Shown here: piece by piece, positions 9,470-61,954 of the stretch
How positions within the stretch are numbered: position 1 is the first letter of the stretch
Layout of the letters: the number at the start of each line of letters is the position of its first letter
NCBI RefSeq assembly: GCF_000746025.2
Contig: NZ_CP045798.1
Location: 3,641,501-3,705,500 of the forward strand
Direction: 5' to 3'
From: Thermanaerosceptrum fracticalcis
GTDB taxonomy: Bacteria; Bacillota; Peptococcia; DRI-13
DNA length: 64,000 nucleotides
Notes under the pieces: generated by a model
The model's input: the letters and a program-made list of their open reading frames with translations, nothing else
Databases searched by the model: none
What the model was told of the DNA's origin: nothing
Program-made: the position numbers and the translations under genes

Positions 9470-10520
9470 CAATGTTAAGTATGTACAGGCCGAACCCTTA
9501 CGCCAATACTGTACAGCCCTTTTTGAAAGTGTCGGGATGCCTGAAGATGAGGCTTATATCAATGCAGACAACCTGGTGGATGCTGATTTAACCGGCGTCG
9601 AATCACACGGTGTCAGCAGAATGGCAATCTATCTAAAAAGGATTCGCGATGGCGTTGTAAATCCGAAATGTGAAATTAAAGTTGTGGCTGAGCATCCCGC
9701 AGTGCTTGTTATAGATGCCAAGAACAGTATGGGTGCCGTTGCCTCCTATAAAGCAATGGAGATGGCTATTAAGAAAGCAAAAGAAAGCGGTGTGGCCTTT
9801 GTCACTGTAAGAAATTCCAATCATTATGGTACGGCAGCCTACTATACCAAGATGGCCCTGGAACATGATATGATTGGTTTTTCCTCCACCAACGGACCAG
9901 CCAGGATGGCACCGTGGGGCGGCAAAGACCCGTATTTTGGCACAAACCCCTTTTCCATAGCTGTCCCTGCCGGGCAGGAATTGCCAGTTGTGGCAGACAT
10001 GGCCACCAGCCTGGTCGCCAGGGGGAAAATCATCCTGGCCGCCAAAAACAATAAAGAAATTCCACTTGGCTGGGCCATAAATAAAGACGGGGAGGATACA
10101 ACAAATGCCAAAGAAGCCCTGGAGGGTACGGTGTTGCCTTTTGGCGGACCTAAAGGTTCAGCCATTGCCCTCTTAATAGATGTTTTCTCCGGTATCCTGG
10201 CGGGAGCAAGTTTTGGCCCCCATATTAAAGATATGTATGCCAACTTTGAAGAGCCTACCAATACGGGCCATATCTTCGGAGCCTTTGATATTAGTAAATT
10301 TATTGATACAAGCCTTTTTAAACAAAACATGGATCAAATGATCAGGGAAATCAAAGGGAGTACACCTGCTAAGGGAGTTCAGGAAATATTCCTCCCCGGG
10401 GAGATTGAACTTAAAAAGAAGCAACAACGACTCAAGGAAGGAATACCTCTTAGTCCGGCAGTGATTAAGGAATTAAAAGAAGAAGGAGCCCTTTGTCGAG
10501 TCGCCTGGACTTTAGATTAA
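9453..10520 (+). CDS. Malate/L-lactate dehydrogenase (Ldh_2) family oxidoreductase
   Basis: The 355-residue NAD(P)-dependent dehydrogenase is of the non-Rossmann Ldh_2 family (malate, sulfolactate, ureidoglycolate and 2,3-diketogulonate enzymes). Family landmarks are ESHGVSRMAIYLKR (~50), VRNSNHYGTAAYYTKMA with the catalytic His (~115), and GTNPFSIAVPA (~163). The start is GTG inside the upstream gene, 8 bases after AGGA at 9441. It interconverts a 2-hydroxyacid and a 2-oxoacid, giving this operon dehydrogenases of more than one fold. Confidence 0.88.
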   Translation: MNSLTNNVKYVQAEPLRQYCTALFESVGMPEDEAYINADNLVDADLTGVESHGVSRMAIYLKRIRDGVVNPKCEIKVVAEHPAVLVIDAKNSMGAVASYKAMEMAIKKAKESGVAFVTVRNSNHYGTAAYYTKMALEHDMIGFSSTNGPARMAPWGGKDPYFGTNPFSIAVPAGQELPVVADMATSLVARGKIILAAKNNKEIPLGWAINKDGEDTTNAKEALEGTVLPFGGPKGSAIALLIDVFSGILAGASFGPHIKDMYANFEEPTNTGHIFGAFDISKFIDTSLFKQNMDQMIREIKGSTPAKGVQEIFLPGEIELKKKQQRLKEGIPLSPAVIKELKEEGALCRVAWTLD

Positions 10521-10557
10521 AAAAAAGGATAATTTGGATAATATACGTGGAGGTAAT

Positions 10558-11538
10558 ATGAAACCAAGAGTATTTATAACGCGTTTAATTCCTGATATTG
10601 GAATTAAAAAATTGCAAGAAGTAGCGGAGGTCAAAGTGTGGTCCGGAGAATTGCCTCCACCCCGTGAGGTCCTCATGCAGGAAGTAAAAGAAGTAGATGG
10701 CTTAGTTTCTTTACTAACAGACAAAATAGATGGGGAATTAATGGATGCTGGGAAGAACTTGAAGGTTATCAGTAATTATGCAGTTGGTTTTGATAATATT
10801 GATTTGGACGCTGCCACACAAAGAGGTCTGTTAGTTACTAACACCCCTGGTGTACTCACTGAAACTACCGCTGATTTAGCATTTGCCTTACTGCTGGCTA
10901 CTGCCCGGAGCGTGGTGTGGGCAGATAAGTTTACCCGGGAGGGTAAATGGAAAACCTGGGAACCCCTGAAATTTTTGGGTCAGGATATCTATGGCGCCCA
11001 ACTGGGGCTTTTAGGTTTTGGCAGAATTGGCTGTGCTGTCGCTAAAAGAGCACGTGGTTTCGATATGAAGGTTAAATATTATGACTTATTTAGGAACGAG
11101 CAGGCGGAAAAAGAGTTAGGGGTGGAATATGCGAGCATAGACGAAATATTGACACAATCTGACTTTATAAGTTTGCATGTACCCTTAACCAAGGATACGA
11201 GACACCTTATTAATAAAGACAGCCTTAAGAAGATGAAAAAAAATGCTGTCATCATAAATACGGCCAGGGGGCCTATCATTAATGAAGATGATTTATACGA
11301 AGCTTTAGTGAATGGTACTATTTGGGCCGCGGGTTTAGATGTGATGGACCCTGAACCACCAAGGGCCGACCATCCCCTATTCAAATTAGATAATGTAGTT
11401 GTCTTACCCCATATAGCCAGCGCCAGTATAGCTACGAGAAATAAGATGGCCCTGATGGCAGCGGAAAACATGATTGCGGGTTTAAGAGGAGAGATACCAC
11501 CTAATTTGGTTAATACAAGTGTGTTGCGGAATAACTGA
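10558..11538 (+). CDS. D-2-hydroxyacid dehydrogenase (glyoxylate/hydroxypyruvate reductase-like)
   Basis: It shows the D-isomer dehydrogenase pattern: NAD motif GFGRIGCAVAKRARGFD near residue 148, the Arg in NTARGPIINED, Glu in DVMDPEPPR, and His in LPHIASAS. The closest-looking groups are glyoxylate/hydroxypyruvate reductases. ATG 10558 is chosen because GTGGAGG at 10547-10553 directly precedes it; a TTG at 10534 would need an unsupported start. The length is about 326 residues. It is the last gene before a bidirectional terminator, so it closes the catabolic run that begins at tctC. Confidence 0.88.
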   Translation: MKPRVFITRLIPDIGIKKLQEVAEVKVWSGELPPPREVLMQEVKEVDGLVSLLTDKIDGELMDAGKNLKVISNYAVGFDNIDLDAATQRGLLVTNTPGVLTETTADLAFALLLATARSVVWADKFTREGKWKTWEPLKFLGQDIYGAQLGLLGFGRIGCAVAKRARGFDMKVKYYDLFRNEQAEKELGVEYASIDEILTQSDFISLHVPLTKDTRHLINKDSLKKMKKNAVIINTARGPIINEDDLYEALVNGTIWAAGLDVMDPEPPRADHPLFKLDNVVVLPHIASASIATRNKMALMAAENMIAGLRGEIPPNLVNTSVLRNN

Positions 11539-11560
11539 GATAATAACATTAAAAAGGAAA

Positions 11561-11615
11561 AAGGCGATTTAAAACCCTACTATAGTATGAAAAGGTTGTA
11601 AATCGCCTTTTTTTT
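11561..11615. terminator. Bidirectional terminator
   Basis: AAGGCGATTTA pairs with TAAATCGCCTT around a loop of about 28 bases. Eight T residues follow on the plus strand, and an A-rich stretch before it gives a T run on the minus strand. It separates the converging hydroxyacid operon and the CdaR-type gene. Confidence 0.88.
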
Positions 11616-11647
11616 GAGGAGGGCGATATCATAGGTACTGATATAAT

Positions 11648-12868
11648 TTACTGTGCCAGCTTTACGATGGCTTCCTCCTGTTTGAGAAGGGTTTTGTTAA
11701 GTAAGAATAGGATTTTTAATTCAATGGCTTCGTCAAAAATCCTGGGGTCTCTCTTGGTAAGCTTATAAATTTTATCCAACCGGTAAAGCAGAGTGTTTCT
11801 ATGGATGAATAAGGCTCTGGCTGTCTCGCTGATGTTTAAGTTACAGTCAAAGAACACTTTTAGGGTATATAATAGCGTCTCGTCTAAGATTCCCGTAATG
11901 GCTTTCTTCTTTTCTCCCAGGGTGTTCTTTATAAATTTGTCAGCGGTATCACTGGGTACACAATTAAGAATCAGCTCTAAGCCCAGGTCATCAGTAAAGT
12001 AAACACCACCGTGGCCTTTAAATTTTTTGCCTATGGCAAGAGAATCAGCTGCGTCTCGATAACTTTTTTTATAGGAAAGTACTGTTTCTGAACAAAGGGA
12101 ACTGACACCTATTGTACAGTCCAGATTAAGATAGTTTTTAATTGTATTGGCAATACTCTTGCAAGTCCGGGAGATATATTTTTTAAGGGATGATTTTTCG
12201 TCGGATGGGTTAACAGGCAAAAAGACAACAAACTCATTACTGCCGGTATAGGCTGAAAGGTAATGTTTATTACCGGCCATTACATATTTTATGCAGTCCA
12301 GTACTTTATCTTTTTCTGCATTTGCAATTTTACAGTTTTCGTAACCATCTAAATGCAGGACCACTGCCACCCGGGGAATGTCTATATCGAAGCCTAAAAG
12401 GGCAGCCCGCTGTTTAAGAGTTTCTCTTGTTTCATCTATTTGTTCAAAGATGATATTATACAGGATATGTTCTTTAGCTTTAGAGTCAAGCTGTGCTTCC
12501 TTTTCCATAAAAGCCATTTTAATCATGGTTTCCACTGTCATTTTTGTTAAATAGGTAAGTGTTCTAACTTTATCGGGGGACCCTGTAATTCCTACCGCTC
12601 CGATTGTACTGCCGTTAAACTCCAGAGGGAGATTAACTCCCGGCTTTACACCTTTAAGTTTAGAACTTTTTTCGTCCGTGATTGTTACTTCACGGCCTGT
12701 TTTTATGGCTTCTAAGGCTCCCTGATGAAAGCCGTCAATTCTTTCAGAATCCAGGCTGCCGATTATTATTCCTTCCATATTAAAAATATTGACATTATGG
12801 CCTATGAGAGGTGAAACTTTATTTGCGATCTCCTGGGCAAAGGCATGTGATAATATCACTTTAATCAC
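11648..12868 (-). CDS. CdaR-family sugar-diacid regulator
   Basis: The 406-residue protein begins with the diacid recognition domain typical of CdaR (ISHAFAQEIANKVSPLIGHNVNIF-like start, SDERIDGFHQGALEA region, residues ~1-135). A middle domain follows. It ends with a PucR-type helix-turn-helix (NISETARALFIHRNTLLYRL, ~355-385). CdaR proteins activate uptake and use of glucarate, galactarate or glycerate. Here a glycerate kinase (21598) and several hydroxyacid enzymes lie nearby, in keeping with that role. It converges with the Tct operon, and the korDABC genes lie upstream of it on the same strand. Confidence 0.9.
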   Translation of the reverse strand: MIKVILSHAFAQEIANKVSPLIGHNVNIFNMEGIIIGSLDSERIDGFHQGALEAIKTGREVTITDEKSSKLKGVKPGVNLPLEFNGSTIGAVGITGSPDKVRTLTYLTKMTVETMIKMAFMEKEAQLDSKAKEHILYNIIFEQIDETRETLKQRAALLGFDIDIPRVAVVLHLDGYENCKIANAEKDKVLDCIKYVMAGNKHYLSAYTGSNEFVVFLPVNPSDEKSSLKKYISRTCKSIANTIKNYLNLDCTIGVSSLCSETVLSYKKSYRDAADSLAIGKKFKGHGGVYFTDDLGLELILNCVPSDTADKFIKNTLGEKKKAITGILDETLLYTLKVFFDCNLNISETARALFIHRNTLLYRLDKIYKLTKRDPRIFDEAIELKILFLLNKTLLKQEEAIVKLAQ

Positions 12869-41465: not shown

Positions 41466-41563
41466 TTATCTGTAGAAATAAAAGAGACCAGTATGATACT
41501 ATTTAGATGTACTCTATAATAAAGATGCACCGTTTTTAATATAGAAGAAAGGTGGAGAAGAAT

Positions 41564-41971
41564 TTGAGTATATTAGTGGTAGATGGTTTGGGGGGGGGAT
41601 TAGGCGCACAGATCGTAGCCCAGTTGCGCCTGCAGCTGCCTCAAGCCGAAATTATAGCGGTAGGAACAAATTCCACAGCCACCACGGCCATGGTTAAGGC
41701 GGGAGCCAGCAAAGGGGCCACAGGGGAAAACGCAGTACGGGTATGTTTGAAAAATGCCGGCTGCGTCATAGGGCCAATAGGAATCGTTTTGGCGGATTCC
41801 ATGCTGGGTGAGATTTCCCAGGCAGTTGCCAGCATGATTGCCAGCAGTCCTGTTCCTAAAATACTCATTCCCGTGAATCACAAAAACCTGGAGATAGTGG
41901 GTATGCAAACCCAGCAGCCCCTGGCCGAATTGATTAAAGAGGCCGTACAAAGGGCGAAAAACTACCTGTAA
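41564..41971 (+). CDS. DUF3842 family protein
   Basis: The protein of about 135 residues starts LSILVVDGLGGGLGAQIV, a Rossmann-like GxGGGxG start. It contains GTNSTATTAMVKAGASKGATGENA and GPIGIVLADSMLGEIS, the DUF3842 hallmarks. The function is unknown; the family is common in Clostridia. TTG 41564 follows GGTGGAG by 6 bases; a GTG at 41552 lies within that site. Confidence 0.85.
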   Translation: MSILVVDGLGGGLGAQIVAQLRLQLPQAEIIAVGTNSTATTAMVKAGASKGATGENAVRVCLKNAGCVIGPIGIVLADSMLGEISQAVASMIASSPVPKILIPVNHKNLEIVGMQTQQPLAELIKEAVQRAKNYL

Positions 41972-43726: not shown

Positions 43727-43853
43727 GAAATATATATACAACAATATAAAACTGCGTTCAATAATATGGAACGATTTGATGGGGGTGAGAGTAAGGGGAG
43801 TTTTTTAGGCGTTGAAAGTTTATTAGTCCATTACAATATGGGGAGGTATGCTT

Positions 43854-44465
43854 GTGAAACTCATAACCTTAGTGGCTAAAGTGGACAAAGAAAAATGTAC
43901 GGGTTGTAAAACCTGTGCGAAGGTATGTCCCACAGTAGCGATTGAAATTGTGGATAGGAAAGCAGTTATTAACGAAGAATTATGCCGCGGCTGTGGCAAC
44001 TGTAATCAGAGATGCCCTGTTTATGCCGTGACCATGGAAAAGCTGGAGAAACCTTATAAGGTTTCGGTGGCTGTGGAGGATGTTCCTTATGAAAAGATTG
44101 ACGAGTTATGCAAAAAGGCCTTATTAAATCCTGAACAAATCATTTGCTACTGTACCGCTACCCGCGCTGAGGAAGTGGCGGCCGCAGTTCTAAAAGGTGC
44201 AAAATCTCCGGAAGAACTGTCGCAGCTTACCGGGGTTAGGACAGGTTGTAAGGTTGAATGTATTCAACCTATGCTTCGTCTCTTAGAAGCTCATGGCGTT
44301 ACACCTGTACCTCCAGAAGGTGGTTATCAATGGTATGGCCGGACCCCCACAATATGGGATATACCGGAGGAAGTAAAGAAAAAATATAGCAGCCGTGGCT
44401 TTTATTTCGATGAAGATATTAAACTCCTTAACAAAGTTAAAGATACTAGAAAGGAGGAGAAATAG
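43854..44465 (+). CDS. 2[4Fe-4S] ferredoxin fused to a BFD-like [2Fe-2S] domain
   Basis: Residues ~1-65 are a bacterial ferredoxin with CTGCKTCAKVCPT and CRGCGNCNQRCPV. Residues ~95-145 look like a BFD/Fer2_BFD [2Fe-2S] domain, with ICYCTATRAEEV and, 33 residues on, TGCKVEC. The last pair spacing is C-x3-C rather than the usual C-x2-C. The C-terminal ~50 residues are unique. GTG 43854 follows GGGAGG by 7 bases; ATG 43848 is too close to it. It is the first gene of the catabolic operon and stops two codons from the next start, so it may donate or accept electrons for the LarA-like enzyme or its maturation, which is inference. Confidence 0.82.
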   Translation: MKLITLVAKVDKEKCTGCKTCAKVCPTVAIEIVDRKAVINEELCRGCGNCNQRCPVYAVTMEKLEKPYKVSVAVEDVPYEKIDELCKKALLNPEQIICYCTATRAEEVAAAVLKGAKSPEELSQLTGVRTGCKVECIQPMLRLLEAHGVTPVPPEGGYQWYGRTPTIWDIPEEVKKKYSSRGFYFDEDIKLLNKVKDTRKEEK

Positions 44466-45911
44466 ATGTTGAGAAAGCCTATTACCCCGCAGAAACCCCG
44501 TGTGTCCCAGTATGGTGTGGATCCTAAATATGTAACGAAAAGGGTAGCCGAATATCCTGAGATTACCTCCGTTATGTTGAGTGATCTGTTTCCTGATACT
44601 CCCAAGGTGATTTACCCCAGTGAAAAGGGTATTGCCGCTGTAAGGGAAGCTGCCGAAAAAGCCTTAGAAAACATCGATATGAGTATGATAAAACCCGGAG
44701 ACTCTGTTAATGTATGTGCCTCTCACCATGGCTTTACCTTACTGGGTGGAGAGCCTTATGCGGAGCTTTTGCGGACAGTCAGAGATGTGATTGCCAGAAA
44801 AACCGGAACCGACAATATTCGTTTAAGAGCCGGGGTTGGTCTTCGCTTCCGGGAGACTGAAGAATATATTAAAGCTTTTAAGCTGGATGAACACTATAAA
44901 GGTAAGGCCCGTGGCGTAGCTCCTGTTGATGAAGGCATACCCATTGAAACTGAGATAGGGACCCTTTATGGGATTAAGGCTATTTATGATGCTGACTGGA
45001 TAGTTCACGTTCATAACAGTGATGTGCGCGAAGTCCACTTCCACCGCCAGGTTGACAGGGCGGTAAAACCCTTTGGCATGTCTTATGCCAGGATTGAAAC
45101 CCGTTCCACATATCACCAGAATTTGGGCCCCAGAGGGGCCAACTTTACCGCCCGTTCTATCTTTGCTTCAGAATTTGTACAAAGCAAGTTTGCTTTCACT
45201 GCCTTTCTGGATATGTCGCCTGTGGGTGTGGTGGGTGTTGATGCCGACAATGACCTCTATGCCTTAAACGACAGGCTAACCGTGGCAGGCTGTAAATATT
45301 ACGGGAAAATTATGACTCTTTTGGGGCAAATAGATGAGTGTATTGCCGCTTTAGATTTCCCCTGCCCCGTACCTTATGTATTTGCTGCTGGTGTCATCTA
45401 TGCCAACTTCGTAGGGGCCAATGTAGATCTCTTTGATTTAGAAGGTGACCTGCCTCCTTATACCTGGTATACGGAAGCCTTCTATGGCAAGGACGGTAAA
45501 CCTTTAATCGAGGGAGTTGCTCCCGTTAACCCCGCTATTAAGATGTGTGTGCAAAATTACGGGTGGGGTGGTTATCCCAGCGCCTTCTTCAGTGAACACA
45601 TTCCCACCATCGTTGTAGGCCGGGAACAGGCAGAAGTAATGAACCGTGACCCCCAGAATATCGAATACATGTCTCATGCAGTAATTGCTGATAACCTTGA
45701 TACGGCAATGGCATTTGCCTATAAGACTGCCAAAACCGATAAAGTGATTATCTTTGACGGGGCAGCCGGTGGTATCAACGTCAGCGAATCCCTGGCCAAG
45801 TTCCTGATAGAAAAAGCTCCCTATGTCAACAAACTGGTGGATGAAGAATTACTCCCCAAATGGTTGCGTCAGCGTGGTGTAGACCCTGAGGTTCTGAAAA
45901 ATTTCAAGTGA
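44466..45911 (+). CDS. Distant LarA-superfamily protein, candidate nickel-pincer enzyme
   Basis: This 481-residue protein is not one I can name. Its layout parallels LarA. There is a G-D-x-V-x-V-x-A-S-H-H stretch (78-88) where LarA has its SDHTRP segment, and a motif GTDNIRLRAGVG (114-125) where LarA has the strand before His108. H191, K201 and H217 are spaced exactly as LarA H174, K184 and H200 (steps of 10 and 16). The C-terminal DNLDTAMAFAYKTAKTDKV resembles the LarA end. The His108 equivalent is not conserved (GLRFRE). Its position in a carboxylate-degrading operon and the LarC paralogue at 52622 support a nickel-pincer role. I rate the fold as likely and the cofactor as plausible. Confidence 0.65.
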   Translation: MLRKPITPQKPRVSQYGVDPKYVTKRVAEYPEITSVMLSDLFPDTPKVIYPSEKGIAAVREAAEKALENIDMSMIKPGDSVNVCASHHGFTLLGGEPYAELLRTVRDVIARKTGTDNIRLRAGVGLRFRETEEYIKAFKLDEHYKGKARGVAPVDEGIPIETEIGTLYGIKAIYDADWIVHVHNSDVREVHFHRQVDRAVKPFGMSYARIETRSTYHQNLGPRGANFTARSIFASEFVQSKFAFTAFLDMSPVGVVGVDADNDLYALNDRLTVAGCKYYGKIMTLLGQIDECIAALDFPCPVPYVFAAGVIYANFVGANVDLFDLEGDLPPYTWYTEAFYGKDGKPLIEGVAPVNPAIKMCVQNYGWGGYPSAFFSEHIPTIVVGREQAEVMNRDPQNIEYMSHAVIADNLDTAMAFAYKTAKTDKVIIFDGAAGGINVSESLAKFLIEKAPYVNKLVDEELLPKWLRQRGVDPEVLKNFK

Positions 45912-45938: not shown

Positions 45939-47183
45939 ATGAGTTTAGAAGTCAAAGAGGCTAGGAAAAGCATTATAGAACCGGGACCGGGATTTGCCAG
46001 CGGTTTAGCCGATCTGGGCAAACATTTAAACGCCAATACCATCACGGCCGGTACTGTGGCCGCCGTATTCGGCTGTACGGGGCCTGCGCTGATTGTCTTA
46101 AATGCCGCCCAGACCGGTAAATTGACACAGCCCCAGGCTATATCCTGGTTATTTGCCATTTACTTTTTCGGTGGTTTGATTAGTATTATCCTGGCCTTGA
46201 AATACAAACAGCCCATTAACGGTGCCTACTCCATACCAGGTGCTGTAATGCTCATTGATTCATTAAAAAACAATTCTCTAAGTGATGCAGCAGGGGCCTA
46301 TCTGGTGGCCGGTCTCATCGTCCTTATCCTCGGCTTGACAGGTTTGATCGGAAAAGTGATGAGATGGTTACCGGTTCCTATCGTCATGGCTATGATTGCA
46401 GGGGCTATGATCAGATTCGGTACAGGTATCGTAACTTCCACACAGGCTGCTCCCGTGATTGGCTTTGCCACCTTAGTTGGTTACTTTTTGGCACCTAAAG
46501 TTTCTAAAAAACTACCCCCAATTCTTACGGCTTTAGTACTGGGTATAGCCGCTGCCGGTTTCACAGGACAATTAAATTTTGCCGGGGTTCAATATAAATT
46601 AATCGGCCCGGAGATTATCATACCCACCTTTAATATGGGAACTATGCTTTCCATAGCCATCCCCCTAGCGGTGCTGGTCATGGGTGCGGAAAATGCCCAG
46701 GCCTACGGAGTTCTAGTTTCTCAAGGGTATAAACCCCCTATTAACACTATGACTATTATCAGTGGTATTGGTGGAATCCTTACTTCTTTCTTCGGTGGTC
46801 ATAACGCCAATATTGCAGGACCCATGACAGCCATTTGTTCTTCCGAGGAAGCTGGCGAAAACAAAGAAGGCAGATACGCAGCTACCGTTGTCAATGGTAT
46901 CCTCTTTGGAAGCTTCGGACTCATTGCCAGTATTGCTGTAGCCTTTGTCACAGGCTTACCTAAAACATTAATCGCCATTGTGGCCGGGCTGGCCATGGTG
47001 GGCGTTTTGATCAGTTCTTTTGAATATGCCTTTAGTACCAAAAAATTCAGAATGGGTGCTTTCTTCGCCTTAGTAATCGCCATGTCTGGCGTAACTATTC
47101 TTAAAATCAGTTCTCCCTTCTGGGCTTTACTGGGGGGCGTTGTTGCCTCACTGATTGCCGAACCCAAAGATTTTGACAGTTAA
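45939..47183 (+). CDS. BenE-family benzoate/carboxylate:H+ symporter
   Basis: The 414-residue protein has about 12 membrane helices. The family motif is visible as GGHNANIAGPMTAICSSEEAG near residue 285, followed by RYAA. BenE proteins take up benzoate and similar aromatic acids with protons. In this operon it probably imports the substrate of the downstream hydratase-aldolase route or its precursor. An aromatic or unsaturated carboxylate is likely, but not shown. GAAGGGGG precedes the ATG. Confidence 0.85.
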   Translation: MSLEVKEARKSIIEPGPGFASGLADLGKHLNANTITAGTVAAVFGCTGPALIVLNAAQTGKLTQPQAISWLFAIYFFGGLISIILALKYKQPINGAYSIPGAVMLIDSLKNNSLSDAAGAYLVAGLIVLILGLTGLIGKVMRWLPVPIVMAMIAGAMIRFGTGIVTSTQAAPVIGFATLVGYFLAPKVSKKLPPILTALVLGIAAAGFTGQLNFAGVQYKLIGPEIIIPTFNMGTMLSIAIPLAVLVMGAENAQAYGVLVSQGYKPPINTMTIISGIGGILTSFFGGHNANIAGPMTAICSSEEAGENKEGRYAATVVNGILFGSFGLIASIAVAFVTGLPKTLIAIVAGLAMVGVLISSFEYAFSTKKFRMGAFFALVIAMSGVTILKISSPFWALLGGVVASLIAEPKDFDS

Positions 47184-47207: not shown

Positions 47208-48020
47208 ATGCACATTGCCCAGGATTTGCGGGACGATATATTTCTCTCGGTAATGCATAAAAAAGTAAGGGCCAATATTACTGTAGAAGACAGTGGTATC
47301 GTCTGTGGCATGAAATTTGCGGCAGAAAAATTAGATTCTTTGGGAGCCGTCATTCACCAAATGGTGAATGACGGCACTCCTGTAGAAAAAGGGGATGTAA
47401 TCCTTTCTTTTTCGGGAGATCCCAAAACTATTGCCATGGCGGAAGATCTGGTGATGGGCTATATTGCTAAGCCTTCCGGTATTGCCAGGGCGGCTCGGAA
47501 AGCAGTGGATTTAGCACAAGGTAAAATAGAGATAGTTAGTGGTGCCTGGAAAAAAATGCCCTTTGACATCAAACACCTGGTCCGTCACGGGATTATGACC
47601 GGCGGCTCCGCGGGCAGGATAGTACAAGGCCCTTTTATCTATCTTGATAAGAATTACGTGCGGATATTTGGCAGTGTCAAGGCGACCCTGGAAGCAGTGC
47701 GGGGATTGGAAGACTATGCCAAAGTCATTCAACTGCGGGGAGAAATTGAGGATATTACCACTGAAGCAAAGGCGGCAGTTGAGGGAGGAGCCTATGTCTT
47801 AATGGTGGATACCGGCTCTTTAGATGATCTGGCTGCTGTCAGTGAGATTGTTAAGAGGATGGGAGCGAGGCAAAAAGTAAAAATTGCTTTTGCCGGGTCA
47901 ATCAAAATAAAGGACATCCCCAAACTCCTTGAATATGACGTGGATATTTTGGATATTGGGACCCAGATTATTGATGCTTCTTTATTAGACCTGAAAATGG
48001 ATGTTGTCCACATTTATTAG
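47208..48020 (+). CDS. Divergent NadC/ModD-like phosphoribosyltransferase-fold protein
   Basis: The 270-residue protein has the quinolinate phosphoribosyltransferase layout: an N-terminal domain with DSGIVCGMKFAAEKL (~28) and GDVILSFSGD (~65), and an alpha/beta barrel with KIAFAGSIKIKDIPKLLEYDVDILDIGT (~225-252). Key catalytic parts are altered: the usual TRKTxPG reads AWKKMPFD, and the GGGxNHR reads GGSAGR. ModD proteins of molybdenum loci are similarly diverged. It may act on a pyridine or other aromatic carboxylate, or be a scaffold. It overlaps the upstream end of the next frame closely, and AGGAGG precedes the ATG. Confidence 0.78.
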   Translation: MHIAQDLRDDIFLSVMHKKVRANITVEDSGIVCGMKFAAEKLDSLGAVIHQMVNDGTPVEKGDVILSFSGDPKTIAMAEDLVMGYIAKPSGIARAARKAVDLAQGKIEIVSGAWKKMPFDIKHLVRHGIMTGGSAGRIVQGPFIYLDKNYVRIFGSVKATLEAVRGLEDYAKVIQLRGEIEDITTEAKAAVEGGAYVLMVDTGSLDDLAAVSEIVKRMGARQKVKIAFAGSIKIKDIPKLLEYDVDILDIGTQIIDASLLDLKMDVVHIY

Positions 48021-48033
48021 GGGGATTAAGCCA

Positions 48034-48927
48034 ATGGAGCTAAACCTATTAGAAAAAACCGAAGTGAGAATAACGGATATTGAGCTGGAAAATGCAAATT
48101 TGACTGACCTGGCTCAAACTGTGGCCGATGTTATGCAATTACCAAGGGATAAAGTGCTGGTAGTAGATGTAAGAAATGACCACATTGCCCTGGATATTCT
48201 CCAGAGAACCGTTCAGGCAGAACAAATATTTGGGAAAAAAGGGGTTTTATTGGCAGCACTCGCCAAGTTGCCGGGGGTGCGTATTAAAACCTCAACGGAT
48301 ATCCATTCTGATGGCATCCTGGGTTATATCGGCTTAGATGAAGCTGAGGCCCACGTTGTTTTAGAACGGACCAGGTCCATGGTCAATAACATCATGTCTC
48401 AGAAACGTTCTAAGGCAAGAGTTTATCCAACGGGCTTTGAGATAATTGAAGGCAAGATTGAGGATACCAATACACCTTATATCGCCAAAAGAATGGAAGA
48501 GGCAGGGTTTATTGTTGAGATCGGGAAAGCCATCCATGACAGTAAAGAGGCTATTGTCCAAAGCTTAAAAGAGGCCGCCAGCCACTGTGGTGTTATCATC
48601 ACTACCGGCGGTGTAGGTGCCGAAGATAAGGATTTTACTATTGAAGGGATACTGGCTTTGGACCCGGAGGCTGCCACACCTTTTATCGTGAAATTTACTA
48701 AAGGACAGGGGAGACATGTCAAAGAGGGCGTCAAAGTTGGGGTCGGGGAGTATAACAACAGCTTGTTAATTGCTTTGCCAGGGCCTCATGATGAGGTAAA
48801 GATAACCGTGCCTCTAATCATTGAAGCTTTGAAAAATAATTATGACAAACATAGACTGGCTCAAATGTTAGTCGATGCGCTGCGGCACCGTTTACAGGAA
48901 AAAGCAGCCCATTGGCACCATCATTAA
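48034..48927 (+). CDS. MoaB/Mog-like domain protein with His-rich C terminus
   Basis: The 297-residue protein has an unassigned N-terminal ~135 residues. Then comes a MoCF_biosynth fold: TGFEIIEGKIEDTNTPYIAKRM (~140), IITTGGVGAEDKDFTIEGI (~190-210) and ALPGPHDEV (~250). In MoaB/MogA/CinA this fold binds nucleotides or molybdopterin and adenylylates it. The final residues are AAHWHHH, a possible metal site. ATG 48034 follows AGGGGG by 9 bases. It pairs with the NadC/ModD-like gene just upstream. No molybdoenzyme is encoded nearby, so a role in a different nucleotide cofactor is possible. Confidence 0.8.
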   Translation: MELNLLEKTEVRITDIELENANLTDLAQTVADVMQLPRDKVLVVDVRNDHIALDILQRTVQAEQIFGKKGVLLAALAKLPGVRIKTSTDIHSDGILGYIGLDEAEAHVVLERTRSMVNNIMSQKRSKARVYPTGFEIIEGKIEDTNTPYIAKRMEEAGFIVEIGKAIHDSKEAIVQSLKEAASHCGVIITTGGVGAEDKDFTIEGILALDPEAATPFIVKFTKGQGRHVKEGVKVGVGEYNNSLLIALPGPHDEVKITVPLIIEALKNNYDKHRLAQMLVDALRHRLQEKAAHWHHH

Positions 48928-48947: not shown

Positions 48948-49733
48948 ATGGATAAGGAGTTTATCGTCAAAGCTGCCGAGGCCTTAAGAGTGGCCATGAC
49001 AAACAAAAAACCTATTTCCGCTTTAACTGAACAAAAACCCGATATCACCATCGAAGAAGCTTACCAAGTACAACTGGTTAATGTGGAAGAGGCCGTAAAA
49101 GCTGGAAAAAGGATTGTGGGTAAGAAAATCGGCTTAACCAGTGTGGCTATGCAGAAGTTTTTAGGCGTTAATGAGCCTGATTATGGACATCTTCTGGATA
49201 CCATGATCTGGGATGAAGAAATCCCCATTAGTTTAAGTAATTTATTACAGCCTAAAATTGAAGCTGAAATCGCTTTTGTCCTGGGTGATGATTTACAGGG
49301 ACCTGGAGTAACTCTTACCGATGTATTAAGAGCTACTGCAGGAGTCGTTCCTTCTTTTGAAGTAATTGACAGCCGTATTAAGGATTGGAAAATCAAAATA
49401 CAGGACACCATAGCTGATAATGCCTCCAGTGCAGGCATTACTTTGGGCAGTCAGCTTATACCTGTTAACCAGGTGGAGCTAAAATATGTGGGAATGGTCT
49501 TACAGAAGAACGGGCAGATTATCGAAACGGCCGCAGGTGCCGCTGTCATGGGGCATCCTGCGTTAGCCGTAGCCTGGCTGGCTAATAAATTAGGTTCTAT
49601 GGGCATCGGTTTGAAAAAAGGAGAAATAATTTTGTCCGGTTCTCTTACGAAAGCAATAGAAGTAAAAGCAGGAGATGTGTTTGTAGCTACTTTTGGCGGA
49701 TTAGGTTCCGTTAAAGCAGTGTTTACAGAATAA
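48948..49733 (+). CDS. mhpD: 2-oxopent-4-enoate hydratase (MhpD/DmpE-like)
   Basis: The 261-residue protein has the hydratase signatures GKKIGLTSVAMQKFLGVNEP (~50) and PKIEAEIAFVLGDDL with the metal-binding acidic pair (~98). Members hydrate 2-hydroxypenta-2,4-dienoate (2-oxopent-4-enoate) to 4-hydroxy-2-oxovalerate. Related members decarboxylate 4-oxalocrotonate (DmpH); the two cannot be separated with certainty. It is first of a three-gene meta-cleavage lower pathway module. Confidence 0.88.
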   Translation: MDKEFIVKAAEALRVAMTNKKPISALTEQKPDITIEEAYQVQLVNVEEAVKAGKRIVGKKIGLTSVAMQKFLGVNEPDYGHLLDTMIWDEEIPISLSNLLQPKIEAEIAFVLGDDLQGPGVTLTDVLRATAGVVPSFEVIDSRIKDWKIKIQDTIADNASSAGITLGSQLIPVNQVELKYVGMVLQKNGQIIETAAGAAVMGHPALAVAWLANKLGSMGIGLKKGEIILSGSLTKAIEVKAGDVFVATFGGLGSVKAVFTE

Positions 49734-49751
49734 AGATGAGGAGTGACACGA

Positions 49752-50657
49752 GTGGAAAAAATAAAAGCAGCCATCATTGGCCCCGGCAACATCGGAATGG
49801 ACCTCATGTACAAGATATTGAAACGGGCCAGAAACATCGAACTAGATACTGTAACAGGTATTATTGCGGATTCTGAGGGACTGATGCTGGCAAAAAGTCA
49901 TGGGTTTAATACTTCTGCCGAAGGAATCGAGGCCATTATCAAGCGGGACGACATTAAAATTGTTTTTGATTGTACCAGTGCCAAAGCCCATCTCAAGCAT
50001 GCTCCGATCCTTAAAGCCCATAAGAAAATAGCCATTGATCTGACCCCGGCGGCAGTGGGACCCTATGTCTCCCCCGCTGTCAATATGCTGGAGAACTTTG
50101 ATAGTGACAATATCAACCTGATTACCTGTGGCGGGCAGGCTACTATACCTATAGTTGCCGCCATCAATAAGGTTGCTGATGTGGAATACGCGGAAATAGT
50201 GGCCACCATTTCCAGCCGCAGCGCCGGTCCCGGGACCAGGCAAAACATTGATGAGTTTACCCAAACAACGGCTAACGGTTTGGTTAAAGTAGCAGGGGCA
50301 GATACCGCCAAGGCTATTATCATCCTGAATCCTGCCGAGCCACCTATTATGATGAGAAACACCATTTACTGCCGGGTAAAAAATCCCGATCATATGGCCA
50401 TTATGGCTAGTGTTACTGAAATGGTGAGCAGAGTTAAAGAATATGTACCTGGGTATACCCTGAAACTGGCGCCCATTGTTGATGGAAACAAAGTGACCAC
50501 AATGATTGAAGTGGAGGGTGAAGGTTCATACTTACCCAAATATTCGGGCAACCTGGATATTATTACTGCCGCTGCCCTGGGGGTAGCGGAAAAAATCGCT
50601 GAAAACATGCTAAAAGACGCAGAAAAAGTTGTAGAAAAGGGGAGGGCTGCCCAATGA
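49752..50657 (+). CDS. mhpF: Acetaldehyde dehydrogenase (acylating)
   Basis: The protein of about 301 residues starts [21 protein letters not shown] (NAD site) and has the catalytic Cys in [16 protein letters not shown] near 130. It turns acetaldehyde, passed through a channel from the aldolase, into acetyl-CoA with NAD and CoA. GTG 49752 is chosen, 8 bases after GAGGAG; a GTG at 49743 overlaps that site. It overlaps the aldolase gene by four bases. Confidence 0.94.
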
Positions 50658-51658
50658 AAAAGGTTAGAATATTTGATTCCACGCTGCGCGACGGTATGCA
50701 TGCCGTCAGCCACCAATTTACTCCCGAAGATATGGCTGCAATTGCCCGGGCTCTTGATGAAGCTGGTGTAGATACAATCGAGATGGGTCATGGTGACGGT
50801 TTGGGCGGCTCATCCTTCCAGTACGGGTTTGCCAAGGCCTCTGACGAAGACTATCTCAGAGCAGTTTCTTCCGTAATCAAAAGAGCTAAACTGGACATTC
50901 TTTTAATTCCCGGTATAGGGACGAAAAGAGACTTGGAAAAGGCGGCCAAATACAATGTAAAAGTTGCGCGGATTGCCACCCATGTTACGGAAGCAGATAT
51001 TGGGGAGCAGCATATTAAAATGGCTAAAGACTATGGTATGGAAGCTATAGGATTCTTGATGATGGCCCATATGGCTCCCCCCGAAAAAGTGGTAGAGCAG
51101 GCAAAGCTTTTTGAAAGCTATGGCGCCGATGCCGTTTATGTGACAGATTCTGCCGGGGCTATGGTGCCCCATCAAGTGAAAGAGAGGGTAGCCGCTGTGA
51201 AAGCTGCTGTTCAGATACCGGTAGGGTTTCATGCCCATAATAATCTAGGATTAGCCATTGGCAATTCCCTGGCTGCCTTTGAAGCAGGGGCCGATTATAT
51301 TGACGGCACTGTGAAAGGTTTGGGGGCAGGGGCCGGTAATGCTCCTACGGAAGTTTTAGTTGCTGTGTTTGACAAACTTAATGTGGAAACGGGTGTGGAC
51401 CTCTATAAAATAATGGATGTTGCGGAAGATGTGGTAACACCGCGTATGCACAGACCTCAGGTTATTGACAAGGCTGCCCTTACTTTAGGATGGGCCGGCG
51501 TATATGGCAGTTTCCTGCTTCATACCTTCCGTGCTGCCGAAAAGTTTAAGGTTGACCCCAGGGATATACTTGTTGAATTAGGTAAAAGGAAGACTGTCGG
51601 CGGACAGGAGGATTTAATCATAGAAGTAGCTTATCAACTGAGCCAATCCCCAAAATAG
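50654..51658 (+). CDS. mhpE: 4-hydroxy-2-oxovalerate aldolase
   Basis: The 334-residue DmpG/MhpE-type aldolase has [17 protein letters not shown] (Arg, Asp and His of the active site) at the start and [15 protein letters not shown] (metal His pair) near 195-208. It splits 4-hydroxy-2-oxovalerate to pyruvate plus acetaldehyde. With the dehydrogenase it forms the DmpFG channelling complex. Together the module feeds central metabolism without oxygen, but its usual upstream ring-cleavage dioxygenases are absent here. Confidence 0.95.
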
Positions 51659-51791: not shown

Positions 51792-52569
51792 ATGGGTACT
51801 CAAGGCAAAAACGGTCTTACTATACAATCAGTAGAAAGAGCCCTGGCTATTCTCGAAGAATTTAGCGTCAGAGAAAGAGAACTTGGCGTGACTGAGATAG
51901 CTAAAAGGGTAGGGCTAAATAAGAGTACCTGTTTCAACTTGATTAACACCCTGCTGCAAAAAGGATATCTGGAACAGAATCCTGACAATGGCAAATACCG
52001 TTTATCTTTAAAGATTTTTCAGCTTGGGAAAATATATGAAGCAGGTTTAGAGTTACGGGAAATTGCTAAGCCTTTTCTGCAGGAATTAGTGGATAAGACG
52101 GGAGAAACTGTTCACCTGGTAATAAGGGACAGAAGAGAAGCTGTTTATTATAGAAAAAGTGGAAGGGCCCAGTGCCATTAAAATTATTTCACAAATAGGC
52201 ACTAGAGTTAATCTTCATTGTACAGGCGTAGGAAAGGTTCTATTAGCTTTTTTGCCAAGTGAATATATTGATAGACTTACACAACATCCCCTGAAAAAAT
52301 TTACAGAAAATACCATAACTGATAAAGAAAAATTATTAGCACATCTCAGAGAGATTAAGGAAAAAGGATATAGTATTGATGATGAGGAGATTGAGGTCGG
52401 TTTACGCTGCGTAGCTGCACCGATTTTTGACCACAGGAAAGAGGTTATCGCTGCAATCAGCGTTTCCGGCCCAACCATCAGGATGACTTATGAAAAAATC
52501 AATGAGTTAACAGAAATTGTTAAAGAAACAGCTTTTAATATTTCAGTGAGGTTAGGATACACTAAATAA
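51792..52569 (+). pseudogene. IclR-family regulator with a frameshift
   Basis: The first part (130 codons, 51792-52181) has the IclR winged helix (SVERALAILEEFSVRERELG, then TEIAKRVGLNKSTCFNLINTLLQKGYLE). The second part has the effector domain (VNLHCTGVGKVLLAFLP, EEIEVGLRCVAAPIFDH). The join is a +1 shift near 52147-52152: reading ATT ATA GAA AAA GTG GAA restores IIEKVEGPSAIKI. Either one T has been gained or this is a sequencing error. IclR proteins of this type control aromatic and carboxylic acid routes, so it probably regulated the upstream operon and the LarC-like gene. Confidence 0.88.
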
Positions 52570-52621: not shown

Positions 52622-53707
52622 ATGTGCTCTATCTATATTGATTGTCCATCAGAAATAAGTTCATGTGCATTATTGGCGGGTATGATCGACTGTATGCTTA
52701 TAGATCTTGACAAAATTAAACAAGATTTAAGTTATCCAGTCGGGGGTAAAGGGCTGATAAACGCCAAAAAGTTAGTTAAACAAGGGTCTACGGTGACTTT
52801 GCTTATACGCGATGTGTCAAGACAAATTAATTTGAGTGAAGCATACGAGATTATTGGCAATATAACACCGGAAGCAAAGGTCAACCGCAAATTAAAAGAG
52901 TATTTAGATTATCATACCGATTCTTCTGTTGAAAAAATATCGTTACAGGATCTTCTGGTTGCTGCGATAATAATATATAGTCTGGAAAAGTCAGACATAA
53001 AAAAAGTTATTTGTTCTTCTATTAAGGGGCGAATTAATAACCCGGCTTTGCTAAAAATTTTACCAGGTATGTTAATGAAAGGAGATTTTTCAGTAACTTC
53101 GTCTCTAGACATTTCCACCCTGGCATTGTTAAAAATAATTGTCCATGAATACAGTGATACTTTCACAATAAAGGTAAAATCGGTAGGGATTGGTTATCAT
53201 AGTTTAACACAAGATGAGGGTATAAAAATATTTCTCGTAGAAAGCACTTATGAAAAGTACAGGGAGGTGGATGTTATAGAAACAAATATTGATGATATGA
53301 ACCCGCAATTCTATGATTATGTATGTGAAAAGATAAGAGCTCTTGGAGCACATGAGGTATATCTGACTCCAGTCTATATGAAGAAAGGTAGACCAGGCAT
53401 CGTCATAAGAATTATATGTAGTCCTTCTTTAACCCATTCCGTAATTAGGTTAATCTATCTGGAGAGCTCTTCTATCGGTGTTAGAGTATATAAAGCCTTT
53501 ACTACAAAAGCTGAAAAAGAACTACATGAAATTCATACTCCTTACGGAAAAGTACGTGTTAAAACAGCCCAAAATGGTGGAAGTTTAGTAAATGTGAGTC
53601 CTGAATATGAGGATTGCAAAAAAATAGCGATAAAGACTGGGAAACCCTTAAAGTTCATTTACCAGGAAGTGACAAACATATTCTTACAAAGTCAAAGTGA
53701 GAATTGA
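52622..53707 (+). CDS. Divergent LarC paralogue (nickel-pincer nickel insertion protein)
   Basis: The 361-residue protein aligns end to end with LarC (compare 58890-60107). The C-terminal half (~215-361) is well kept: ETNIDDMNPQFYDYVCEKI, VYLTPVYMKKGRPG, ESSSIGVRVYKAF, SPEYEDCKKIA. The N-terminal half has lost the His-rich linker, the FDCFSGISGNM start (here YIDCPSEISSC) and the HEVHFHEVGAVDAIID motif. In LarC the C-terminal region binds CTP and inserts nickel into the pincer nucleotide. This copy may be a dedicated, altered nickel inserter for the LarA-like protein of the adjacent operon. AAAGGAGG precedes the ATG. Codon use is more AT-rich than the neighbours. Confidence 0.82.
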   Translation: MCSIYIDCPSEISSCALLAGMIDCMLIDLDKIKQDLSYPVGGKGLINAKKLVKQGSTVTLLIRDVSRQINLSEAYEIIGNITPEAKVNRKLKEYLDYHTDSSVEKISLQDLLVAAIIIYSLEKSDIKKVICSSIKGRINNPALLKILPGMLMKGDFSVTSSLDISTLALLKIIVHEYSDTFTIKVKSVGIGYHSLTQDEGIKIFLVESTYEKYREVDVIETNIDDMNPQFYDYVCEKIRALGAHEVYLTPVYMKKGRPGIVIRIICSPSLTHSVIRLIYLESSSIGVRVYKAFTTKAEKELHEIHTPYGKVRVKTAQNGGSLVNVSPEYEDCKKIAIKTGKPLKFIYQEVTNIFLQSQSEN

Positions 53708-58889: not shown

Positions 58890-60107
58890 TTAATCTTCCT
58901 TTTCAGTAACAAAGGTTTTATAGCCTAAAGTCATGGCTTCCTGGTAGATTTCTTTTAGGGGGATTCCCGTTTCCCGGGCGATAGTACGGCAGTCTTCGAA
59001 TTCGGGAGCGATATTTACGATTTTTCCTCCTGTTTTGGCTGCTTTAATCCGGACGGGACCGTACTTTGTTTCTAACACATGGGAAGATCTGACCAATTTA
59101 CGGCGGGTTACCTGGTACATCCGTACGCCTATGGTGGTAGATTCCGTAAATATGATATCGAGAAGAGGCTGGTGATCAGCCAAGTTGCTGGTCACGGATA
59201 AGAGCGTCCCCGGCCTGTTTTTTTTCATGTAAACGGGGGTAAGGAAGACATCGGCGGCGCCGGCCGCAAAGAGTTTTTCCATCAGGTAGTTGTAGAATTC
59301 AGGGTTCATATCATCAATTGTAGTTTCAATAATGGTGGAAGCATCTTCTTCTTCGGCTTTATCCACCAGTTCACCGACAAAAAGTCTCAGGACATTAGGA
59401 ATGGGGAGGTCCCAGGTTCCCGCTCCATAGGCAATTGACTCTGTTTTCAAGGGAGGCAGTGGGCCGAATTCCCGGGCAAGGGTGCTGATGATGGCAGCTC
59501 CCGTAGGTGTTACCAGTTCGCCTTTGATTTCACCGCTGTAAAAAGGGATACCTTTTAACAGTTCAGCAGTGGCAGGGGCGGGAACAGGCATGAGGCCGTG
59601 GGAGCATTTTACCATGCCGTTTCCCACATGGAGATGGGACGCATACACTCTGGGAGCACCCAGGTAATGAAAACAAAAGGCAGTGCCTACAATATCAATA
59701 ATGGCATCTACGGCACCTACTTCGTGGAAGTGGACTTCGTGCAAAGCACAGTTATGGACCTTGGCTTCCGCTTCTCCCAGGCGCTGGAAAATTTCAAGGG
59801 ACATGCCTTTCACTTTCGGGGACAGGGTGCTGTTTTCAATTATTTCTGTGATGTCCTGGAGGTTCCTGTGCTGGTGATGGCCATGCTGGTGTTCTTGGTG
59901 ATGGTGGTGGGGAAGCTTCACATCAAAATAGGCGGCGCTTATTCCTAATTTTTTTACCCGTTGATAAACCAATTCGTATTCATTATGTAAGGGCAGTTTT
60001 TGCAGTTCCCGGGCCAGGCACTCCAAGGGTATCCCGGCGTCCAGAAAGGCACCGATGACCATGTTGCCGCTAATACCGGAAAAACAGTCGAAATATAGAG
60101 CTTTCAT
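58890..60107 (-). CDS. larC: LarC, nickel insertion protein of nickel-pincer cofactor synthesis
   Basis: The 405-residue single-chain LarC has FDCFSGISGNMVIGAFLDAG at the start. It has a His-rich linker (HHHHQEHQHGHHQHR near 67-81), LHEVHFHEVGAVDAIIDIVG near 123, ELVTPTGAAIISTLA near 195, and the C-terminal CTP/nickel region (ETTIDDMNPEFYNYLMEKL, VYMKKNRPGT). LarC uses CTP to put nickel into the pyridinium dithiocarboxylate nucleotide. Unlike the Lactiplantibacillus gene, it is not split by a frameshift. It lies 5 bases after larB. Confidence 0.94.
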   Translation of the reverse strand: MKALYFDCFSGISGNMVIGAFLDAGIPLECLARELQKLPLHNEYELVYQRVKKLGISAAYFDVKLPHHHHQEHQHGHHQHRNLQDITEIIENSTLSPKVKGMSLEIFQRLGEAEAKVHNCALHEVHFHEVGAVDAIIDIVGTAFCFHYLGAPRVYASHLHVGNGMVKCSHGLMPVPAPATAELLKGIPFYSGEIKGELVTPTGAAIISTLAREFGPLPPLKTESIAYGAGTWDLPIPNVLRLFVGELVDKAEEEDASTIIETTIDDMNPEFYNYLMEKLFAAGAADVFLTPVYMKKNRPGTLLSVTSNLADHQPLLDIIFTESTTIGVRMYQVTRRKLVRSSHVLETKYGPVRIKAAKTGGKIVNIAPEFEDCRTIARETGIPLKEIYQEAMTLGYKTFVTEKED

Positions 60108-60112
60108 TGTTG

Positions 60113-60862
60113 TTACCTCGCGTCTTCGTTAATAATGGCGGCTAATCTTCCGGCGCCGAAACCGTTATCGATATTCACCACGCCAACTCCGGCAGCACAG
60201 CTGTTTAACATGCAGAGGAGGGCGGAGAGGCCGTGAAAGTTGGCGCCATAGCCCACGCTGGTAGGTACGGCAATGACCGGGCGGGAGACAAGGCCGCCTA
60301 CCACGCTGGCCAGGGCCCCTTCCATTCCCGCTACGACAACCAGGACATTGGCCTTTCTCAGCTTATCAAGATGGGCCAGGAGGCGGTGCAGCCCGGCTAC
60401 GCCTACGTCATAGAGACGCTCCACCCTGTTGCCCATGATTTCCGCCGTGATGGCTGCCTCTTCCGCCACGGGAAGATCGGCTGTGCCGGCGCTTACGACC
60501 AGGATGGTCCCTTTATTAAGCTGGAGGGGTTTCCGGTTCACCACCACCATCCGGGCTAAGGCATGATATTCGGCTTCAGGACATACTTCCTTAATGGCTT
60601 CATAGGCCTCCAGGCTGGCCCGGCTGGCCAGGATATTGTTACTGTTTTTGGCCAGGTAACCGACAATTTCTTTAATCTGCTGGGGAGTTTTACCCTGGCA
60701 GAAAATGACCTCAGGATGATTTTGCCGCAACGCCCGGTGGTTATCTACTTTGGCAAAGCCCAGGTCCTTAAAGGGTAATTCCTTAAGCTGTTCCATTCCT
60801 TCCTCGACAGTGACTTTTCCCTGCTGGATAGCTTGTAGAAGTTTTTTGATCTGTTCTTGCAT
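60113..60862 (-). CDS. larB: LarB, pyridinium-3,5-biscarboxylate mononucleotide synthase
   Basis: The 249-residue protein has a PurE-like carboxylase domain in its C-terminal half (VVSAGTADLPVAEEAAITAEIMG near 122; GMEGALASVVGGLVSRPVIAVPTSVGYGA near 177). It carboxylates and hydrolyses nicotinate adenine dinucleotide, the first step to the nickel-pincer nucleotide. GGAGG lies 8 bases ahead of ATG. It forms a unit with larC. Confidence 0.93.
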   Translation of the reverse strand: MQEQIKKLLQAIQQGKVTVEEGMEQLKELPFKDLGFAKVDNHRALRQNHPEVIFCQGKTPQQIKEIVGYLAKNSNNILASRASLEAYEAIKEVCPEAEYHALARMVVVNRKPLQLNKGTILVVSAGTADLPVAEEAAITAEIMGNRVERLYDVGVAGLHRLLAHLDKLRKANVLVVVAGMEGALASVVGGLVSRPVIAVPTSVGYGANFHGLSALLCMLNSCAAGVGVVNIDNGFGAGRLAAIINEDAR

Positions 60863-61079: not shown

Positions 61080-61880
61080 CTACAGTGTCTCATTCATACT
61101 TCCCTGGCGGTAGCCAAGAAGGTCCAGGGTCACATAGGTGTAACCAAGTTTTTTTAATTCCCTAGTAACCTTATCACCCATATCAGGCGCGGTAATCCGG
61201 GGAAAAATTTCCGGGGGCAGTTCTATGCGGGCCAGCTGGCCGTGGTCCCTAACGCGCAGTTGTTTTTCTCCTAAAAGGTCTATGAGGTAATTCTCAGCCT
61301 GTCCCACCCGCTGTAAGATTTCCCGGGTAATAGTGGTGCCGTAGGGGACCCGCGTGGCTAAACAGGGTTTGGAGGGTTTGTTCCATACGGCTAATCCGTA
61401 AGAGCGGGCCAATTCCCTGATTTCTGCTTTGCTTAATCCCACTTCCAGTAAAGGACTTTTCACCCCCAGTTCCAGGACGGCCCTGTGCCCGGGGCGGTAG
61501 TCATTTTGATCATCGGCGTTAGACCCCTCTATGACCCAGTTTAATCCCTGTTCCTTGGCCAGTTCTAAAAGACCCAGGAAGCGGAACTTTTTACAATGAT
61601 AGCACCTATCCGGCGTGTTGGCGGTGAAGTTTTCATTCTCCAGGTCGGCCACCGGTACCAGGAGATGTCTGGCTCCTATCTGTTGGGCATAGAGCTGGGC
61701 TTCTGCAATTTCCTCTTCAGTGGATAATTCGGAAGCTGCTGTAACGGCAAGGACCTTTTCTTCTCCCAGACTTTGCCGGGCTACAGCCAGGAGCAGGGTA
61801 CTGTCTACTCCTCCGGAGTAAGCCACCAGCACACTGCCTAATTGTTTGAGGTTATCCTGCAATCTTTTAAGTTTCTCCAT
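61080..61880 (-). CDS. larE: LarE, sulfur insertion protein of nickel-pincer cofactor synthesis
   Basis: The protein of about 266 residues is of the PP-loop ATPase family (AYSGGVDSTLLLAVA near 22) with the LarE pattern: DRCYHCKKFRFLGLLELA near 85 and NKPSKPCLATRVPYG near 172. The three cysteines (two in CYHC, one in KPCL) resemble cluster-type LarE, which transfers sulfur catalytically, rather than the single sacrificial Cys form. It adenylates and sulfurates the LarB product. ATG 61880 follows AAAGGGTG; the longer frame to 61910 is rejected. It is separated from larB by a repeat-filled gap. Confidence 0.92.
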   Translation of the reverse strand: MEKLKRLQDNLKQLGSVLVAYSGGVDSTLLLAVARQSLGEEKVLAVTAASELSTEEEIAEAQLYAQQIGARHLLVPVADLENENFTANTPDRCYHCKKFRFLGLLELAKEQGLNWVIEGSNADDQNDYRPGHRAVLELGVKSPLLEVGLSKAEIRELARSYGLAVWNKPSKPCLATRVPYGTTITREILQRVGQAENYLIDLLGEKQLRVRDHGQLARIELPPEIFPRITAPDMGDKVTRELKKLGYTYVTLDLLGYRQGSMNETL

Positions 61881-61954
61881 ATTATCACCCTTTCTTAAAG
61901 AAAAAGCCACGAAAGCAAAACCCTTTTCTGGGCAGCCTTCATGGCTATCGTCAG

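Follow-up and report, generated by a model that had tools for sequence, protein, structure and literature searches.

The closest described relatives of the protein considered here belong to the LarA family, whose characterised members racemise or epimerise 2-hydroxy acids (PMC7583248, PMC11770544) with the aid of a nickel-pincer nucleotide (NPN). In LarA the pincer is bound by a lysine, K184, and the nickel is ligated by H200, whereas H108 and H174 form a catalytic histidine pair and D72 and R75 help to bind the ribose and phosphate of the cofactor. The residues H174, K184 and H200 are separated by steps of 10 and 16, and the LarA of Isosphaera pallida displays identical steps with H173, K183 and H199 (PMC12611868). 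About 15% of surveyed genomes contain all three of the cofactor genes larB, larC and larE without larA, from which further NPN users have been predicted (PMC11796402). The protein described below, which we call LARX, represents a concrete candidate for such a user; it is missed by sequence searches and is present in 29 of the 399 genomes sampled from its phylum.

LARX was encountered in a 64-kb window, this being the whole stretch of Thermanaerosceptrum fracticalcis DNA that was analysed. Its gene occupies positions 44466-45911 of the + strand and encodes 481 amino acids, as given in a preliminary description, which had also pointed out the LarA-like spacing of three residues. These are found where they were placed: H191 (codon 45036-45038), K201 (45066-45068) and H217 (45114-45116), the putative equivalents of H174, K184 and H200, respectively. 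In an alignment of 38 sequences, in which the homologues are 65-87% identical to the protein of the window, all three residues are invariant. Free variation of K201 and H217 had been named as grounds for abandoning the idea, and it is not seen. About a third of all columns (154 of 481) are likewise invariant. Seven invariant histidines (positions 87, 88, 181, 183, 191, 193 and 217) fall in the N-terminal, cofactor-binding half, and the histidine positions of the C-terminal half are variable. K201 and H217 thus reproduce, by position, the 16-residue spacing between the pincer lysine and the nickel-binding histidine. The complete triple nevertheless arises in 1.15% of shuffled LARX sequences (P 0.0115). 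Taken by itself the spacing is no more than a hint of kinship with LarA, and it was dropped as a sole line of evidence.

Sequence comparison proved to be of limited use in placing the protein. LARX matches no family in Pfam or NCBIfam, and searches of the PDB sequences with either a single query (phmmer) or a profile (hmmsearch) returned no match. Profile-profile comparison by hhalign with LarA profiles, built from 5 and 14 sequences, gave an alignment that follows the expected register, although 3 of 60 block-shuffled decoys score equally high. All of these routes were set aside, since none exceeds the decoys. The predicted structure is more informative. A first AlphaFold (AF2) model, made from 20 sequences, has a pTM of 0.80, and a second, made from 38, has a pLDDT of 83 and a pTM of 0.82. 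When the second model was compared with the PDB by Foldseek, the first eight structures were all of the LarA family, with E-values from 1.1e-8 to 1.3e-6 and the next at 1.4e-2; the first model likewise retrieved LarA-family structures in its first eight places, with a best E-value of 2.5e-7. The absence of a LarA fold, which the preliminary description had held to be fatal to its proposal, is therefore not what either model predicts. The two-domain LarA fold is recognisable in the predicted structure with TM-scores of 0.40-0.51 and an rmsd of 8-12 A over the whole chain, and these low scores and large deviations mean that the modelled domain orientation or detail differs from that of LarA. Domain orientation also varies among published LarA relatives. 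For the active-site loop, residues 187-223, the first model gives a pLDDT below 50 and the second one of about 60-80. Because sequence comparison is not significant by itself, membership of the superfamily is argued from the predicted structure together with synteny. LARX lies outside the Lar_N sequence family, and what is claimed instead is a relation at the level of the fold and a LarA-like mode of working.

The synteny is provided by the cofactor genes. The window contains a complete set on the - strand, comprising larC (58890-60107; over the cut-offs of TIGR00299 and NF052512), larB (60113-60862; NF033503, 303 bits against a cut-off of 175) and larE (61080-61910; TIGR00268, 320 bits against 150), none of which features in the preliminary description. 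The LarC paralogue that it did report is borne out: the gene at 52622-53707 (+) encodes a member of the nickel insertase family with a divergent N-terminal half, matching positions 167-375 of the PF01969 (Ni_insertion) profile with an E-value of 1.8e-49 and NCBIfam LarC2 with 133 bits (cut-off 50). Among the 29 LARX genomes, larE is over its cut-off in every one, and larB and larC are each found in 28. For larC this gives a Fisher P of 8e-7, but the gene is common (226 of the 399 genomes), which makes its co-occurrence a modest result and leaves the argument to be carried by linkage. In 15 of the 29 genomes a larC-family gene and LARX are no more than 20 kb apart; a simple model of uniform placement puts the P at about 5e-18. 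A sixteenth case is provided by genome G084, where the contig bearing LARX breaks off at 8.1 kb and a different one has a single run of genes for a MoCF-like protein, hydratase, aldehyde dehydrogenase and aldolase followed by larE, larB and larC. All three cofactor genes lie near LARX at eleven loci (L007, L009, L011, L018, L098, L101, L102, L104, L105, L107 and L116). Several ordinary LarA proteins are often present in LARX genomes, and three genomes (G084, G130 and G387) have larB, larC and larE without any Lar_N match, leaving LARX as the only LarA-type candidate. In a further 12 genomes with LARX, mostly MAGs whose completeness is not established, LarE was matched in only six, which counsels caution. 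The predicted dependence of LARX on NPN is well supported by computation, through both the co-occurrence and the linkage of these genes. A further LarA-like protein, again a distant one (Lar_N E 2.5e-8; DUF362 E 9e-5), is encoded in the window at 1338-2630 (-) and has at least two relatives in the genome (L026, L028).

LARX itself sits within what appears to be a catabolic operon on the + strand. Immediately upstream, and with its last base directly abutting the LARX start codon, is a gene (43848-44465) for a protein with two [4Fe-4S] motifs and a BFD-type [2Fe-2S] domain (Pfam Fer4, Fer2_BFD), termed FdBFD and proposed to be the electron partner; it precedes LARX at almost every locus, and its cluster cysteines are invariant. 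Downstream of LARX come a BenE-type importer of aromatic carboxylates (45939-47183; TIGR00843, 235.6 bits against a cut-off of 203.4), a NadC-like protein with the fold of quinolinate phosphoribosyltransferase and an altered acid-binding motif (47208-48020; Pfam QRPTase_N/C), and a MoCF-domain protein resembling MogA, MoeA and CinA (48001-48927; Pfam MoCF_biosynth, E 9e-22) that ends in a histidine-rich tail. Three catabolic genes follow. The first encodes a member of the 2-oxopent-4-enoate hydratase/2-oxo-3-hexenedioate decarboxylase family (48948-49733), which reaches no equivalog cut-off (TIGR03220, 317 bits against 408.8), and the others encode an acylating acetaldehyde dehydrogenase (49743-50657; TIGR03215, 437.9 bits) and a 4-hydroxy-2-oxovalerate aldolase (50654-51658; TIGR03217, 531.3 bits), both over their cut-offs. 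Judged by these three activities, the preceding steps probably yield the C5 acid 2-oxopent-4-enoate. An IclR-type regulator at 51792-52569 (+) is split into two overlapping frames, 51792-52181 and 52159-52569; it is intact in relatives, at about 260 amino acids, and the split is due to a genuine frameshift or to an error in the sequence. Parts of the operon were also found by tblastn at loci L011, L014, L015, L016 and L018. Other neighbours recur. An M24 peptidase or creatinase-like protein is frequent near LARX (L002, L005, L012-L014, L016, L018, L101, L105-L107 and others), and a small DUF3842-type protein occurs at two loci (41552-41971 of the window and 11459-11869 of L006, with the Pfam match on the L006 copy). 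At three loci (L119, L123 and L126) a split molybdenum hydroxylase is encoded downstream of LARX, with MoCo-binding subunits of 420 and 334 amino acids, an FAD subunit of 293 and a small subunit of about 160, and the same loci harbor a LarA relative of 28-30% identity, also downstream.

Taken together, it is highly probable that LARX has the predicted LarA fold, keeps the positions of the pincer lysine and the nickel histidine, and is genetically tied to larB, larC and larE, to the ferredoxin and to the NadC-like protein. As to its function, we lean, on balance, towards a ferredoxin-coupled NPN enzyme that acts as a reductase rather than a racemase and opens 2-furoate, a furan acid derived from plants, to 2-hydroxypenta-2,4-dienoate. 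The substrate would be imported by BenE or, in some genomes, also be formed by an alcohol dehydrogenase, an aldehyde:ferredoxin oxidoreductase (AOR) and an HmfF-type decarboxylase acting on furfural or HMF. Two electrons would pass from FdBFD to the pincer of LARX, from which a hydride would be delivered to C5 of the furan ring; the C5-O bond would then open to yield 2-hydroxypenta-2,4-dienoate, the enol of 2-oxopent-4-enoate (C5H4O3 + 2H = C5H6O3). Hydratase, aldolase and acetaldehyde dehydrogenase would convert this product into pyruvate and acetyl-CoA. Reductive opening is proposed because it fits in a single step, because a ferredoxin is present and because ferredoxin-reducing types of enzyme (AOR, PFOR) are among the neighbours; we infer from this context both which way the electrons flow and what the substrate is. 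The preliminary description had suggested a new superfamily branch that catalyses a different reaction, its substrate perhaps a carboxylate that the BenE-type transporter imports and that ends up as 2-oxopent-4-enoate; this suggestion is favoured by the predicted fold, the invariant K201 and H217 and the linkage to larB, larC and larE.

The clue to the substrate comes from a UbiD-type decarboxylase. HmfF of Pelotomaculum thermopropionicum interconverts furandicarboxylate and 2-furoate, and an HmfF-like UbiD is linked to LARX in seven sampled genomes. When such a protein was compared with the Pelotomaculum HmfF (6H6V) the score was 688 bits, against 240 for the next distinct protein, and a second comparison gave 527 bits against 203. 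The segment EHLLLG is kept in all six of the LARX-linked UbiDs in which it was compared, and its histidine, positioned by counting, appears to match the HmfF histidine that has a role in furan specificity (PMC7976604). The seven closest HmfF relatives in the 399 genomes are all on the contig that carries LARX, within about 17 kb; more widely, 17 of the 399 genomes, nine of them with LARX, have UbiDs that match the L102 copy at an E-value of 1e-110 or better (P 3e-7). The search of the 399 genomes found HmfF to be absent from most of those with LARX, Thermanaerosceptrum fracticalcis included, so that furoate is suggested by a minority of the clusters. Genes for an iron-dependent alcohol dehydrogenase (Fe-ADH) and AOR occur in several of the same neighbourhoods, and no CoA ligase that could serve as a furoyl-CoA synthetase was recognised among the conserved LARX neighbours that were annotated. 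A similar ferredoxin-coupled NPN enzyme could act instead on a different heteroaromatic acid with a five-membered ring, pyrrole-2-carboxylate or thiophene-2-carboxylate for example, to give a C5 dienoate: the genetic context would be identical, importers of the BenE type suit small aromatic acids in general, and pyrrole-2-carboxylate is a substrate of some UbiD enzymes (PMC7976604). The linked UbiDs, however, have HmfF as their nearest relative rather than the dimeric HudA/Fdc1 type, which acts on pyrrole-2-carboxylate, and AOR and Fe-ADH fit furan aldehydes and alcohols, which renders such a substrate unlikely, if still credible.

The active site can be compared with that of LarA through a hand alignment built on the weak hhalign register. 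It sets H87 opposite D72, F90 opposite R75 and R127 opposite H108; the neighbouring histidines H87 and H88 (codons 44724-44729) are invariant in the 38 sequences, with H88 opposite the neighbour of D72. Thus the cofactor-ribose aspartate and the phosphate-binding arginine or lysine would be replaced by H87 and F90, and of the catalytic pair H191 is kept at the position of H174 while the invariant R127 would occupy that of H108. The loss of His108 that was noted in the preliminary description agrees with this alignment, the weakness of the register leaving the assignment provisional. These apparent changes bear on whether LARX might use NPN to racemise, epimerise or isomerise a hydroxy acid of the pathway, with FdBFD serving another step. 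Such a role would agree with the characterised LarA-family enzymes, but it is decidedly unlikely given the apparent replacement of the ribose aspartate, the phosphate or substrate arginine and one catalytic histidine by invariant H87, F90 and R127, the location of FdBFD directly upstream of LARX almost everywhere, and a proposed C5 intermediate downstream of which no racemisation is needed. The same apparent replacement of D72 and R75, along with the ordinary LarA proteins that often share the genome, would also fit a LARX that has the LarA fold but does not use NPN, with the clustered larB, larC and larE serving other proteins. This is improbable, as linkage to those genes is tight in many families, including genomes with no other LarA, and as the lysine and histidine of the pincer positions do not vary.

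In the favoured reading, in which LARX reduces furoate with a pincer cofactor, the NadC-like and MoCF-like proteins find a place as accessory factors. The NadC-like protein is present in all 29 LARX genomes against 3 of 370 without LARX (P 5e-41, kinship among the genomes being ignored); counted by genus, the figures are 20 genera with LARX against 3 of 248 (P 2e-27). Two of the three genomes without LARX contain what are fragments of the operon, one on a contig of 4.3 kb and the other on a contig with runs of N. In the third, the gene stands next to larB and larE in the region 9596-12418 of locus L144 (G088), an arrangement that hints at a cofactor role for the NadC-like family beyond the LARX operon. 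Genes resembling XdhC and YqeB are also located nearby. Aligned with yeast NadC, the protein has YLDKNY in place of LKDNH and its acid-binding segments are altered. In the MoCF-like protein, histidine makes up 24% of the last 15 residues over ten members, compared with 1.8% in the body, and the tail is found in many members. Histidine-rich tails occur in nickel chaperones. We propose for the MoCF-like protein a part in cofactor maturation or nickel handling; either protein may be involved in making the cofactor, in modifying it or in supplying its metal, and with the LarC paralogue in some genomes they would make or load it, perhaps in a modified form. The likeness of the NadC-like protein to an enzyme of pyridine dicarboxylates, and the molybdenum hydroxylase beside LARX at three loci, would also suit a pyridine carboxylate (picolinate or dipicolinate) that is hydroxylated and then opened via 2-aminomuconate to 2-oxopent-4-enoate, but this is highly improbable, for few clusters have the hydroxylase, a deaminase was not recognised, the HmfF linkage would be left unexplained, and the placing of the NadC-like gene at L144, next to larB and larE but with no LARX, suggests a cofactor role instead.

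Within the open-access literature, to which the survey was confined, we found no prior description of anaerobic furoate or picolinate degradation, of NPN chemistry on furans, or of the LARX family. A differing route for furfural has been proposed for Desulfovibrio furfuralis, via 5-oxo-4,5-dihydrofuran-2-carboxylate, as outlined in a paper that cites that work (PMC11384913). We suggest, tentatively, that LARX is the first NPN enzyme to exchange electrons with ferredoxin, that it opens furans independently of O2, and that it does so with a modified pincer nucleotide in whose assembly the NadC-like and MoCF-like proteins assist. If the reaction is as proposed, NPN chemistry would include net as well as hidden redox, and an oxygen-free route would exist for the furan acids of heated or pretreated biomass.

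In some respects LARX mirrors the LarA superfamily (COG3875; Pfam Lar_N, PF09861), with which it shares the predicted fold, the H-10-K-16-H arrangement and the link to larB, larC and larE. However, it has no detectable sequence similarity to LarA, the positions of H108, D72 and R75 are apparently changed, and it has constant ferredoxin and NadC-like partners in a catabolic operon that implies net redox. The proteins LarASp and LarABw (PDB 9Q2U/9Q3J/9Q3K) are likewise divergent versions of the LarA fold of about 500 amino acids with a single catalytic histidine, but they have asparagine at H174 and keep H108, whereas LARX shows the reverse, with H174 kept and H108 apparently lost; they are also recovered by a LarA sequence search, which LARX is not. 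The aerobic 2-furoate pathway (hmfABCDE) has the same proposed substrate and, in some genomes, the same HmfF-type feed, but has 2-furoyl-CoA as an intermediate and reaches 2-oxoglutarate by way of a molybdenum dehydrogenase (PMC6678421), in contrast to the genes for 2-oxopent-4-enoate that lie downstream of LARX. Finally, a hydratase, an aldolase and an acylating acetaldehyde dehydrogenase also serve in the lower pathway of meta-cleavage (dmpE/F/G, mhpD/F/E), whereas no oxygenase was recognised at the LARX locus, where the C5 intermediate would come from LARX itself.
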